Part shown: positions 2,706-25,999 of the stretch, in pieces
How positions within the stretch are numbered: the first letter of the stretch is position 1
Layout of the letters: the number at the start of each line of letters is the position of its first letter
Source: Streptomyces sp. NA04227
GTDB lineage: Bacteria; Actinomycetota; Actinomycetes; Streptomycetales; Streptomycetaceae
Length of the DNA stretch: 64,000 nucleotides
Direction of reading: 5' to 3'
Assembly (NCBI RefSeq): GCF_013364195.1
Contig: NZ_CP054918.1
Location: 1,167,001 to 1,231,000, forward strand
Translations under genes and position numbers: made by a program
The notes under the pieces: model-generated
Seen by the model: the letters and a program-made list of their open reading frames with translations, nothing else
What the model was told of the DNA's origin: nothing
Database searches by the model: none

Positions 2706-3701
2706 TCAGCCCCGACGGCGCCGAGCCAGTGCGAAGGCGCAGGCGCCCGCGCCGAGCAGGGCGATCGCGCCGCTCACCAGGTACGGGGTCTGGGAGCCAC
2801 CGCCGGTGGCGGCGAGGTCGTCCTGCGAGGTCTGCCGCTCGGTCTGGGGCTCGGCCCCCGTCCCCGCGCCGTCCTTGCCCTCCGGCCGCTCGGGCTTCCC
2901 GGCCTCGTCTCCCCCGTCGTCGGGCCCGCCGGGCTTCTCCGGCTCCGCGGGCTTCCCGGGCTTCGCGGCAGGCGTCTCGCAGGTCGCCCCGGCCAGCGTG
3001 ACCCGCCCCGTCACCTTGGCCACACCGAGCTTCAACGGGTCGACGGAGACGGCCAGTTCGAGTGCGGAGGCGGCGGCGGTACGGGAGGTGGTGTGGCGCT
3101 TGGCGAGGTCGAGTCGTACCTCGCCGACGCCCGGCACCGTCACCTGGGTGGTACCGCTCGTGGACAGTGTCACCTTCTTGCCGAGGACGGTCACGGAGCC
3201 GAGCAGGTTCGCCTCGGCGACCGGTTTGCGGCCCGTTTCGCAGGTGGCGCGGGAGCTGACCGCGCCGACCTCGATCAGGGACAGCAGGGGCAGCCCGGGC
3301 AGGTTCAGCTTGGCGTGGGCCAGTTCGGTGCGCCCCTCGGCCCTGGTCCCGCTCACGGTCGCCTTGGCGGAGGCCACGTCGGCGCGCAGCACGCTGAACG
3401 GCTTGCCGTGGTCGACGCCGTCGAGCCGGGCGGTCAGCGCGGTCTTCTCGGCGCTCTTCGGCGCCCGGACCTCGTTGAGGGTCAGGGTGAGCGGCACGTC
3501 GACGGTCTTGTTGAGCAGCGAGACGTCGAGATCGGTGCGCAGGACGACCGCACTGGCGCGCCCGGTGTCCGGCCGGTCCGTCGTGGTCGCCTGTGCGGTG
3601 CCCGCCCAGGCGGGAGCTGCCGGGACGGCGAGCAGGGCGAGGCCCGCGCAGCCCGCGGCGAGCCGGGGCACGGCGGTCCGTACGGACCCGTTTCGGGGCA
3701 T
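2706..3701 (-). CDS. Secreted LAxTG-anchored protein (SCO1860-like)
   Basis: A cell-surface protein of unknown function with a full sortase-anchoring architecture. From the ATG chosen here, an N-terminal signal peptide (basic start, hydrophobic AGCAGLALLAVPAAP, cut near AWA|G) is followed by about 240 residues rich in beta-type segments. Next come a Pro/Lys/Gly/Glu stalk, the motif LAATG, a hydrophobic helix (VSGAIALLGAGACAFAL) and a final ARRRRG. LAxTG is the motif used by class E sortases of Streptomyces. Three cysteines occur in the ectodomain, two of them in the context ATCET. Family members sit beside cobalamin genes in other Streptomyces. A possible upstream TTG (3725) or GTG (3782) start would lengthen the N terminus; no strong Shine-Dalgarno decides it. 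Confidence 0.8.
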   Translation of the reverse strand: MPRNGSVRTAVPRLAAGCAGLALLAVPAAPAWAGTAQATTTDRPDTGRASAVVLRTDLDVSLLNKTVDVPLTLTLNEVRAPKSAEKTALTARLDGVDHGKPFSVLRADVASAKATVSGTRAEGRTELAHAKLNLPGLPLLSLIEVGAVSSRATCETGRKPVAEANLLGSVTVLGKKVTLSTSGTTQVTVPGVGEVRLDLAKRHTTSRTAAASALELAVSVDPLKLGVAKVTGRVTLAGATCETPAAKPGKPAEPEKPGGPDDGGDEAGKPERPEGKDGAGTGAEPQTERQTSQDDLAATGGGSQTPYLVSGAIALLGAGACAFALARRRRG

Positions 3702-23795: not shown

Positions 23796-25382
23796 TCAGT
23801 TCAGCCACGGCCAGTCGGCGTCCCGGCCGGCCTCCAGCAACGGGACGAGCCGGAAGGCCGCGTCCGTCAGTCCGCCGAAGGTGTGCCGGTTCGCGTCACC
23901 GCTCGGGCCGTGGCCCACCTCGTATCCGGCCAGGTTCCAGGTGTAGACGGGGACGTGCTGGGGCACCTGCGAGGTCGGGTCGCCGCCGCGGTGGTGCGTG
24001 TACTGCTCGTCGGTGACGATCAGTACACGGTCGTGGCGGCGGTAGTGACGCCGTACCGCCTCGGTGGTGTCGGTGCCGCCGAGGTCGCCGAACCGATCGA
24101 TGATCTTGAGCACCGACTCGCCCTTGCGGTAACGCACCACGGCGCTCTCGGTTCCGAACTCGACCAGGTCCGCGTCCGCCGCGCGCAGCGCGAGCGCGGT
24201 GCCGAACACGGCGGCGCCGTCCGCCCTGGTGAGATCGGACCGCTCCGACAGCCGCGACCAGAACATCGACCCGGAGCGGTCCACCAGGATCAGGGTCCGG
24301 CCGGGCAGCGCGGGCACGTTCGCCAGGGAGTGCCCGAGGGCCTTCTCCAGCGGGTACGACCAGCGCAGCGAGGGCGCGTGCCGGTGGGCGGCGAGGTAGC
24401 GGAACGGGAACTGCCGCGAGCGCGCCACCTCTTCGGGGTCGCTGATCCTCGCGGCGACCCGGGCCGCGGTCTCGTCCGAGACACCGGCCTCGTCGAAGTT
24501 CCGCAGGTTGCGCACCAGCGCCATCGTGCCCATCGACGGGATCACGGCCTCCCAGGCCGCACGGTCCATCGGACCCTGCAGCCATCCGGCGAGCGCCTCC
24601 CAGGTCATGCCCGCCTCGGCGAGCCGCTCGGCGGCGTCCGGTGCGGTGACCACGGCGCGGCGCCGGTCCACGGGCAGCGCCATCAGCGCGCGGTGCGCCG
24701 TGAGCATCCGGGCGGCGGCGGGCGGGACCGCGTTCTCGGGGTGGTGCCGCCGGTCGAGCGCGTACTGGAACAACGGGCCCTGCCACGGCTTGCCCGGATC
24801 GGGCGCCGCGTGCACCAGGTTGAGTACGTCGCCGAAGCGGTAACCATGCGAGGCGGTGTCGTACTTGAGCAGTGCGCGGGCGTCGTACATCCGGCGCACC
24901 GCGTCGGCCACGCCCCGCTTGACGGGCTTGGGCACCGCACGGCCGTAGCGCGCGGTCCAGTAGCCGAGCAGTTCGCCCGGCTCGTCGGGGCGCCGCAGCA
25001 CGGAGGCGATCACCTGACGGTTCGCGGGGCCCGTGGTGGCCCCGGCCTCCAGGCGGGCCCTGACGTACTCGGCGGCGCCGACGAGCGAGGCGGTACGCAT
25101 CGCGCCGGGTCCGCGCAGCCAGCCGAGCAGGCCGGCGGTCCACTTGGGGTCCTCGACGGCGAGCCGTCGCACCAGCGCGGTGAACCGGTCGTCGCGGGCC
25201 TCGCCGCTCTCGTAGAAGGTCTGCTGCGTCACGAAGTTGGCGACCGCGAGCAGAAAGAGCTCGCCCCGCGCGTCCCGCAGCTCCCCCCGGCCGCCCTCGT
25301 GGGTACGGGCGCCGCCGCGGCCCGCCGAGCGGACCGGAGAAGTGATACGGGCGCGTGCGAAACGGGTGTTGAAACGCGCCAT
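23796..25382 (-). CDS. Ro60-family (TROVE domain) RNA-binding protein, bacterial Rsr
   Basis: A 528-residue ortholog of the Ro60 autoantigen, a ring-shaped protein that binds Y RNAs on its outer surface and ends of misfolded RNA in its hole. The N-terminal two thirds are the HEAT-like TROVE ring (from NTRFARARITSPVRS; LAVANFVTQQTFYESGEAR; WTARYGRAVPKPVKRGVADA). The last third is a von Willebrand A domain with the MIDAS motif DRSGSM, then GGTDTTEAV and IVTDEQYTHH. The ATG at 25382 follows GGGGG at good spacing; upstream sequence in this frame is RNA-coding or leader. In other bacteria Rsr partners Yrl RNAs, and here three Yrl-like RNA units lie just upstream on the same strand. A likely role is RNA quality control or decay with a 3' exonuclease. 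Confidence 0.93.
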   Translation of the reverse strand: MARFNTRFARARITSPVRSAGRGGARTHEGGRGELRDARGELFLLAVANFVTQQTFYESGEARDDRFTALVRRLAVEDPKWTAGLLGWLRGPGAMRTASLVGAAEYVRARLEAGATTGPANRQVIASVLRRPDEPGELLGYWTARYGRAVPKPVKRGVADAVRRMYDARALLKYDTASHGYRFGDVLNLVHAAPDPGKPWQGPLFQYALDRRHHPENAVPPAAARMLTAHRALMALPVDRRRAVVTAPDAAERLAEAGMTWEALAGWLQGPMDRAAWEAVIPSMGTMALVRNLRNFDEAGVSDETAARVAARISDPEEVARSRQFPFRYLAAHRHAPSLRWSYPLEKALGHSLANVPALPGRTLILVDRSGSMFWSRLSERSDLTRADGAAVFGTALALRAADADLVEFGTESAVVRYRKGESVLKIIDRFGDLGGTDTTEAVRRHYRRHDRVLIVTDEQYTHHRGGDPTSQVPQHVPVYTWNLAGYEVGHGPSGDANRHTFGGLTDAAFRLVPLLEAGRDADWPWLN

Positions 25383-25384
25383 GA

Positions 25385-25454
25385 GAATTCCCCCGAATTC
25401 GATGTCTTGCGGTGTGCTTCGGTTTCTTGCGAGGCACTTCGGTTTCTTGCGAGG
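25385..25454 (-). promoter_or_regulatory. Ro60 leader: tandem repeats and hairpin with ribosome site in the loop
   Basis: CTTCGGTTTCTTGCGAGG occurs at 25417-25434 and 25437-25454, a 20-bp period, with a decayed third copy from about 25400. Next to the start codon, two GAATTC arms (25385-25390, 25395-25400) can form a hairpin on the minus strand whose loop is the GGGG of the Shine-Dalgarno site. The arrangement suggests translational control of the Ro60 message. Confidence 0.45.
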
Positions 25455-25589
25455 TCTTGGGCCCGGAACTCGGGCAGGGAAACGCGGAGCCCGAAAGGGC
25501 GCCGAGATCCGGAAAGGCACTGCGTGCATGCCCGTGTGCGCACAAGGCACGTACACACGAAGGGACATGAAGACGAGGGAGACGGAACA

Positions 25590-25734
25590 CCGGATGCCCG
25601 AGGTCGAAGTCGGCGGCGGTACAGGTTCCGTATGCTCTACCCACTGAGCTACACCGGCCCAGAGCCGATGACGGGACTCGAACCCGCGACCCTACGATCA
25701 AGAAGTAACCGCTGCCTGCGCACCGGGCATCCGG
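25590..25734 (-). ncRNA. Yrl-type Y RNA unit 3 with permuted tRNA-like module
   Basis: Read on the minus strand, 145 nt closed by a perfect 11-bp basal stem (CCGGATGCCCG with CGGGCATCCGG). Then come GTGCG, GGC, an A-C mismatch, stem GCGGT/ACCGC, a bulged T, AC/GT and the TACTTC hexamer. The tip holds a tRNA-like module in permuted order: T arm GCGGG-TTCGAGT-CCCGT (25671-25687); an acceptor-like stem CATCGGC/GCCGGTG closed by a 5-nt loop (25652-25670); TA; D arm GCTC-AGTGGGTA-GAGC (25634-25649). After the D arm TACG pairs with CGTA before the T arm, as an anticodon stem would. A true tRNA would have the D arm first and open acceptor ends, so this is not a tRNA gene. Confidence 0.75.
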
Positions 25735-25740
25735 CGCCTG

Positions 25741-25811
25741 CCTCCCGAGATCAGGTGGATCGCGGTGGGATTCTTGGAGAGAGAAGTAACCGCGTTCCGC
25801 GCACCGGGAGG
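25741..25811 (-). ncRNA. Y RNA-like unit 2, short form without tRNA-like module
   Basis: 71 nt on the minus strand, closed by a perfect 7-bp stem (CCTCCCG with CGGGAGG). As in the flanking units this is followed by GTGCG, a short stem (GGA with TCC), an A mismatch, stem CGCGGT/ACCGCG and TACTTC. The tip is only a small hairpin TTCT-CTCTCCA-AGAA. The 3' side carries CTGATCT before the basal stem, matching CTGAACT in unit 1. It looks like a minimal Ro-binding Y RNA. Spacers to units 1 and 3 are 12 and 6 nt. Confidence 0.65.
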
Positions 25812-25823
25812 TGCATGAAATTG

Positions 25824-25964
25824 TCCATCCGGAGTTCAGGGCGGCGGGACCATATTTGGTGCTCTGCCCCTGAGCTACACCGGCACGAATGCCGGTGGCA
25901 GGATTCGAACCTGCGACCTCCCCATTAAGAGTGGAAGTAGGTCCTGCCTTCGCACCCGGACAGA
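25824..25964 (-). ncRNA. Yrl-type Y RNA unit 1 with permuted tRNA-like module
   Basis: 141 nt on the minus strand, closed by a 9-bp basal stem with two wobbles (TCTGTCCGG with CCGGATGGA). Then come GTGCG, GGC, an A-C mismatch, stem GGACC/GGTCC and TACTTC. The module at the tip is T arm GCAGG-TTCGAAT-CCTGC (25898-25914), an acceptor-like stem CACCGGC/GCCGGTG closed by a 6-nt loop (25878-25897), TA, then D arm GCTC-AGGGGCA-GAGC (25861-25875). Before the T arm a hairpin TTCCA-CTCTTAA-TGGGG resembles an anticodon arm. The unit starts where transcription from the TAGAGT -10 box would begin. Confidence 0.75.
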
Positions 25965-25968
25965 AAGA

Positions 25969-25999
25969 ACTCTAGGCGGCGGGCCGCTTGTGGGGCCAA
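25969..25999 (-). promoter_or_regulatory. Putative promoter of the Y RNA cluster
   Basis: On the minus strand TTGGCC (25999-25994) and TAGAGT (25974-25969) are separated by 19 bases. Transcription would start near 25962, within two bases of the first base pair of Y RNA unit 1. The spacer is long for a housekeeping sigma factor, so this is tentative. Confidence 0.4.

Follow-up and report, generated by a model that had tools for sequence, protein, structure and literature searches.

The 64,000-nt stretch of the Streptomyces sp. NA04227 genome analyzed here (referred to as the window) carries a gene for a Ro (Rsr) protein and, just upstream on the same strand, three structured RNA units that we call A, M, and B. 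On sequence grounds, the locus probably makes three Y RNAs together with the Ro protein that binds them, the RNAs serving as interchangeable adaptors for one Ro. An earlier note on this DNA had proposed that three Y RNAs precede the Ro gene, and this proposal has held: the units are conserved in Streptomyces, their stems covary, and in the 150 genomes of the genus searched none occurred without Ro or at least a remnant of it.

Three RNA units with a common handle precede the Ro gene

The Ro gene (23796..25382, minus strand) encodes a protein of 528 amino acids. Its TROVE domain matched Pfam family PF05731 at 56.4 bits (cut-off 23; E = 4e-15), and two solved TROVE proteins matched it at E = 2e-27. 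Across an alignment of 13 Ro proteins, the residues of the metal ion-dependent adhesion site (D368, S370, and S372 of the D-x-S-x-S motif, T437, and D458) do not vary. An AlphaFold model built from 8 close sequences had a mean pLDDT of 58.1 and was too poor for use in judging the ring of helical repeats. This gene gave the single Ro match in the NA04227 genome (7.9 Mb searched), and the closest named relatives are Streptomyces, with at most 84% identity.

We delimited the RNA units with a pattern rule, composed after inspection of relatives, that specifies a 5-bp outer stem directly before GTG[CT][GA], a TACTTC-like box, and then CT followed by the complementary strand. In the window, the rule picked out three units and no more on the minus strand, each lying just upstream of Ro, and nothing on the plus strand; 20 letter-shuffled 64-kb windows yielded 6 matches, or 0.3 per window. 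Unit A (25824..25964, minus strand), a predicted Y RNA whose tRNA module is complete but circularly permuted, is supported by the rule, the Rfam YrlA model, covariation, ARAGORN, and its fold. Unit M (25741..25811, minus strand), supported by the rule, covariation, motif, and fold, is a short candidate Y RNA consisting of a Ro stem and an apical hairpin loop without a tRNA module. Unit B (25586..25738, minus strand) is a putative YrlA-type Y RNA with T, acceptor, and D arms, class I here, supported by the rule, the Rfam YrlA model, covariation, and fold. The outer stems of A, M, and B are 9, 7, and 15 bp long by the rule. The lengths first reported for A and M (141 and 71 nt) and the spacer of 12 nt between them are unchanged; the third unit, first given as 145 nt, is now 153 nt due to its longer outer stem, and the spacer between M and B is 2 nt by the rule, not 6.

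All units share a handle composed of the outer stem, GGUGCG, a 3-bp stem, a mismatch, a 4- or 5-bp stem, and the UACUUC-like box. The 3' side consists of a UGAnCU-like sequence, which lies opposite GGUGCG in a conserved internal loop, and the outer strand. The minimum-energy folds of A, M, and B reproduce the main stems of the comparative structures, with single-sequence z scores of -2.70, -3.26, and -2.57, respectively, against dinucleotide shuffles.

ARAGORN found no tRNA in the window, and an Rfam scan of the window returned nothing above the cut-offs. Scores with the YrlA model (RF02553) were 40 bits for B and 35.7 bits for A, below the cut-off of 69, with B matching the whole model (positions 1-114; E = 2.9e-7) and A matching positions 24-84 (E = 5e-6). 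Because these scores fall under the Rfam cut-off, we refer to the units as YrlA variants and not as members of RF02553.

Unit A holds a whole tRNA in permuted order

Unit A holds a whole tRNA that has been opened between the D and anticodon arms and whose acceptor ends have been joined. Its parts, all on the minus strand, are an anticodon-arm-like hairpin, CCA-CUCUUAA-UGG with the triplet CUU (25922..25934, hand-counted; covariation helix 3 and ARAGORN), a T arm (25898..25914; covariation helix 5 and fold), an acceptor stem with both ends linked by a short loop (25878..25897; covariation helix 6 and fold), and a D arm (25861..25875; covariation helix 7, with four pairs that never vary, and fold). 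The hairpin, CCR-CUnnnMA-YGG in A units generally (CGA/UCG in one unit), stands directly before the variable loop. The Ro stem is grafted between the D and anticodon arms, and A retains an anticodon-arm hairpin of its own.

Pattern-based extraction from 110 loci (80 named Streptomyces loci, 29 others, and the window, some of them possibly near-duplicates) provided 83 A, 97 M, and 99 B units. When the A units were reordered to tRNA order, ARAGORN called a tRNA in 83 of 83 (Lys, ctt, for the window unit). In their native order 6 of the 83 were called, and among 415 letter shuffles none; the shuffles are a weak control for ARAGORN, and the B units a better one. With a second, generic un-permuting finder, ARAGORN calls were obtained for 82 of 82 A units (1 of the 83 was left unparsed). 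The same finder gave calls with incoherent triplets for some B units as well (class I, 18 of 60; class II, 8 of 36); therefore, ARAGORN is permissive when three arms are good. It also led to tRNA calls for 12 of 14 orphan units located away from Ro and for 24 of 37 units from other genera, phages, and plasmids, where the halves had not been found in 7 of an initial 44.

The anticodon loop of A is ungapped and 7 nt long in all 83 units, with U33 and A38 invariant and U at position 36 in 80, such that the triplet varies mainly at two positions. ARAGORN read cat in 30 units, gat in 27, ctt in 14, gct in 5, and seven triplets once each, for a total of 11 kinds (the single "tta" corresponds to ttt in the loop alignment). 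On a Ro DNA tree of 61 tips, the triplet changes 27 times (shuffled mean, 31.5). In the five units compared, un-permuted A resembled its best host tRNA (73-77%) to roughly the degree that host isotypes resemble the nearest other isotype (62-79%). Two hallmarks of a tRNA gene, recognition in native order and an open acceptor end, are lacking in unit A of the window, and a function of A as a tRNA was rejected on the 11 different triplets in 83 units and the loop-closed acceptor ends.

Unit B follows the YrlA plan and unit M lacks a tRNA module

The tRNA-like core of B (25629..25696, minus strand, hand-counted; covariation helices 3-6) is bounded by the anticodon-stem strands CGUA (25696-25693) and UACG (25632-25629), with the T arm, acceptor hairpin, and D arm between them in permuted order. 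The 4-bp anticodon stem, in which 3 of 4 pairs covary, leads into the Ro stem. This trait of YrlA, an anticodon stem that continues into the Ro stem without an anticodon hairpin, is found in B and not in A. The permuted T-acceptor-D module of YrlA is present in both A and B but not in M, and the T-loop motif was found in none of the 97 M units; M is best described as Yrl-like in its Ro stem only. The original description of a Yrl-type cluster, with two tRNA-like units and a short one, applies to B, which follows the YrlA plan, whereas A differs by its anticodon-arm hairpin and M resembles Yrl RNAs only in part.

Covariation supports the fold of each unit

We aligned 49 of the 83 A units (mutual identity <96.5%), 50 of the 97 M units (<93%), and, at <95% identity, 40 B units with a class I D arm (excluding the odd rows L052 and L054) and 29 of the 36 with a class II D arm. 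The share of cells paired was 99.9% for A, 99.2% for M, 99.3% for B class I, and 98.5% for B class II. Pairs changed on both sides numbered 9, 4, 12, and 11, respectively. Of 500 shuffles per alignment, 0, 7, 0, and 0 attained these counts, and none attained the covariation score of any of the four alignments. All slid versions of the structures scored lower, the closest being M (0.055 versus 0.087). The structures were named from the same sequences, and this favors them over slid versions. In rows having the long variable arm of B class II, 5 of 5 pairs changed on both sides. The D arm of A and the two-pair helix 4 never vary and are evidence neither way. Collectively, covariation supports the fold of each unit; close relatives among the loci and genomes are not independent.

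Unit number and tRNA modules vary among Streptomyces

By the unit rule, the 80 named Streptomyces Ro loci contain three units in 47 cases, two in 30, and one in 3. The remainder of these loci together with the opposite strand yielded 7 matches per 1.11 Mb. When the window is included, the D arm of B belongs to class I in 44 of 81 loci and to a Leu-like class II in 29, with B missing or unclear in the other 8; for the two class II heads compared, the nearest host tRNA was tRNA-Leu. The class of B changes 18 times on the Ro DNA tree (73 tips; shuffled labels gave a mean of 23 and a minimum of 18) and 15 times on the Ro protein tree. Presence of A changes 12 times on the Ro DNA tree (shuffled mean, 18.0) and presence of M 6 times (7.75). 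These counts were taken from FastTree trees irrespective of branch support, and recombination could inflate them. At two loci (L032 and L106), approximately 150-230 nt before Ro, a B head carries a repeated GATGTGTCAGAATTC-like stretch that may be a snapshot of module rearrangement.

The units co-occur with Ro

Of 150 genomes of the genus taken in one draw, 89 had a Ro match, which in 8 of them was a short remnant. Units were called with model R2 at E = 0.001 or model R1 at ≥58 bits; matches confined to R1 positions 28-104 (up to 54.7 bits) were excluded as tandem-tRNA-like, and ARAGORN agreed in the two loci checked. Where the Ro match was long, all 81 genomes had units (two of these, G005 and G081, look broken); units were also present in 2 of 8 genomes with remnants and in 0 of 61 without Ro (Fisher P = 1e-41, long match versus none). 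The remnants (G066, G125, G023, G047, G082, G085, G126, and G132, with Y units remaining in G066 and G125) suggest repeated loss of Ro. Second or third Ro copies, several with their own units, occur in nine genomes (G526, G013, G016, G039, G101, G110, G134, G402, and G323), and Streptomyces plasmids also carry Ro.

The only other match at E = 0.001 in the NA04227 genome was a pair of tandem tRNA-Asn genes. Such pairs score 50-65 bits with the unit models, matching over the permuted core (R1 positions 28-104), because the 3' half of one tRNA and the 5' half of the next give the same order. A tandem-tRNA junction captured on a Ro stem would make a Y RNA, and tandem tRNA genes are a possible source of the permuted core.

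Units on other contigs or far from Ro were counted by hand in at least 21 genomes, each of which has a long Ro match. Several of these units have Glu-like or Ser/Leu-like D arms by eye, and for the two units compared, the nearest host tRNAs were tRNA-Glu and tRNA-Ser. Solo orphan units lie at varied loci (L133-L137, L141, and L148-L150; positions ~2900-3220), several with tRNA-Glu-like D arms and most with a terminator-like hairpin just downstream, as seen by eye. At eight further loci of Ro-positive genomes (L139, L140, and L142-L147; positions ~2840-3300), a single unit, or one paired with a unit with a Ser/Leu-like head, lies directly upstream of a priA-type gene; PriA_3primeBD was found in 3 of the 3 loci tested. 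Vertebrate Y RNAs act in DNA replication. The Deinococcus Y RNA is reported to have been unable to substitute for them in vitro (PMC4726728).

Units accompany Ro in other genera, phages, and plasmids

Across the class, Ro matches were found in 53 of 394 genomes and 21 of 137 genera. Upstream DNA was examined for 27 of the 31 non-Streptomyces Ro genomes (28 loci); the other four were excluded because their matches were remnant, weak, broken, or distant. At least one unit was present at 26 of the 28 loci, two or more at 17, and five at L190 and L192 (non-overlapping matches at E = 0.001, counted by hand); the stricter unit rule gave at most four. Units lie just before Ro in the phages Alone3, BRock, and VanLee and in a Rhodococcus plasmid, and phage Kela has one unit before an RNA ligase gene, which in turn precedes Ro. 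The unit rule itself found no units in the four phages. The YrlA cut-off was reached by none of 36 sources scanned (best score in 20 diverged loci, 53.9 bits), and three units of other genera reached the Rfam tRNA cut-off (30.6-31.3 bits). Phage annotations label parts of two Y units as tRNAs: tRNA-Ser(gct) at 2274-2347 in Alone3 (unit L222:2270-2413) and tRNA-Arg(tct) at 2204-2275 in VanLee (unit L224:2204-2339). Such arrays have probably been overlooked, since the window units fall under the Rfam cut-offs and phage annotation treats at least two units as tRNAs.

Relation to known Y RNAs

YrlA is bound by Rsr, is a substrate of DusA and TruB, and tethers PNPase. The NA04227 units resemble YrlA (RF02553) of Salmonella and Mycobacterium smegmatis in their position beside the Rsr/Ro gene and in combining a Ro-binding stem with a permuted T-acceptor-D module. 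They differ in that A has an anticodon arm, and so another graft point, M has no module, and relatives have class II and Glu-like modules. Several Y RNAs are located near rsr in Deinococcus, and to our knowledge no tRNA module has been described for the main Y RNA of Deinococcus radiodurans (DrY). Bacterial Y RNAs are, as far as we know, established in few experimental systems.

More than one Y RNA beside the Ro gene is already known from the Salmonella rsr-yrlB-yrlA-rtcB-rtcA operon (PMC9879122), in which the Y RNAs lie after rsr and before rtcBA, whereas NA04227 has three that precede Ro, with rtcB elsewhere. Also known are Yrl RNAs bound by Rsr in M. smegmatis, and in every organism studied Ro orthologs are described as forming particles with Y or Yrl RNAs (PMC4726728). 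In the D. radiodurans RYPER complex, a Y RNA tethers Rsr to PNPase (PMC4726728). A bacterial Y RNA structure (PDB 6CU1) has been superposed on tRNA with a circular permutation (PMC11472068), and the arms of YrlA, for which PNPase tethering is also described, have been named as D, T, and acceptor (PMC8394870); unit A adds an anticodon arm to these. An array of unlike heads, class II heads, and a complete permuted tRNA on a protein-binding stem were not encountered in the literature searched, a coverage that did not include the main bacterial Y RNA papers.

Proposed function and alternative explanations

A conserved promoter-like element, TTGGCC-N19-TAGAGT (25969..25999, minus strand), recognized by eye on relatives, lies before A; in 8 A-less loci inspected, a promoter-like element precedes M. 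Because of this element and the spacers of 12 and 2 nt, we infer that the units are transcribed together; processing into separate RNAs and binding to this Ro would follow. A, M, and B share the putative Ro-binding handle and differ in their loop ends. By analogy with published Rsr-Y RNA-PNPase complexes (PMC4726728 and PMC8394870), the permuted tRNA modules of A and B most likely link Ro to a partner that binds tRNA, for example PNPase. M, having no tRNA module, probably only covers the RNA-binding face of Ro, acting as a gate.

Several results weigh against three adaptors for one Ro. A scan for the sigma-70 consensus gave no promoter. The pair-type count of M was reached in 315 of 500 shuffles, and its structure rests on fewer changes than those of the other units. 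The pattern search found no A in 20 of 81 loci and no M in 8, M is degenerate in some, and B is absent or unclear in 8; thus, no single unit is indispensable. RtcB is encoded approximately 3.6 Mb from Ro in NA04227, whereas it neighbors rsr in Salmonella, and an RNA-repair operon of the Salmonella type is ruled out.

The units could instead form a cis-acting 5' leader through which Ro binds its own mRNA and represses its own synthesis, with no separate Y RNAs. We consider this unlikely, although it need not exclude adaptor RNAs. The units do lie on the Ro strand just upstream of the gene, whose start site falls within a conserved inverted repeat. Against a leader, at least 21 of the 81 genomes in which the Ro match is long have single or paired units elsewhere, every unit is closed by a stem of its own, most of the solo units fetched are followed by the terminator-like hairpin seen by eye, and Ro orthologs are stated to form particles with Y or Yrl RNAs wherever studied (PMC4726728). 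Far less credible still is the idea that the units are simply what is left of an old cluster of tRNA genes upstream of Ro. Their tRNA resemblance is strong, and tandem tRNA-Asn genes score with the same models; this explanation was nevertheless rejected on the permuted order, the covarying Ro stems outside the tRNA part, the absence of a tRNA part from M, and the co-occurrence with Ro.

A further explanation, about as improbable as the leader, is that the tRNA-like units are decoys or sensors held by Ro for enzymes that cut or modify tRNA, such as anticodon nucleases and phage or rival toxins, with module swapping and the variable anticodon reflecting an arms race. The 11 triplets carried between invariant U33 and A38 would fit this idea, as would the swapping of B class nearly as often as random labels and the phages that carry Ro and units beside tRNA genes. 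One study (PMC7790460) considered whether YrlA might competitively inhibit an anticodon nuclease but did not see the nuclease cleave it. The restriction of triplet variation mainly to two positions also argues against decoys, and drift after loss of decoding could give the same pattern. No nuclease linked to Ro was found among the nearest known-family genes around the locus, which are of PhoX and TetR types, and the search did not extend beyond these neighbors.

Returning to exchangeable adaptors, a broader version can be offered tentatively, and we consider it possible but less probable than not. Ro proteins of actinobacteria and actinophages may draw on exchangeable libraries, one to five Y RNAs in size, in which the handle is constant and the heads either derive, in repeated captures, from different tRNA families (class I, Leu-like class II, Glu-like, or an entire permuted tRNA whose anticodon is free) or lack a tRNA part. 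Each head would recruit or bait a different tRNA-handling enzyme, and Ro would be a programmable RNA-surveillance hub. Arrays with a constant Ro handle and swapped heads are ready-made sets for testing the partners of the heads, and the headless unit M allows gating to be separated from tethering.

Sequence element at the Ro start codon

The inverted repeat noted above, GAATTCGGGGGAATTC (25385..25400, minus strand), precedes the start codon of Ro, includes the probable ribosome-binding site, and is found in 87 of the 110 loci. It may function as a translational or protein-binding switch.

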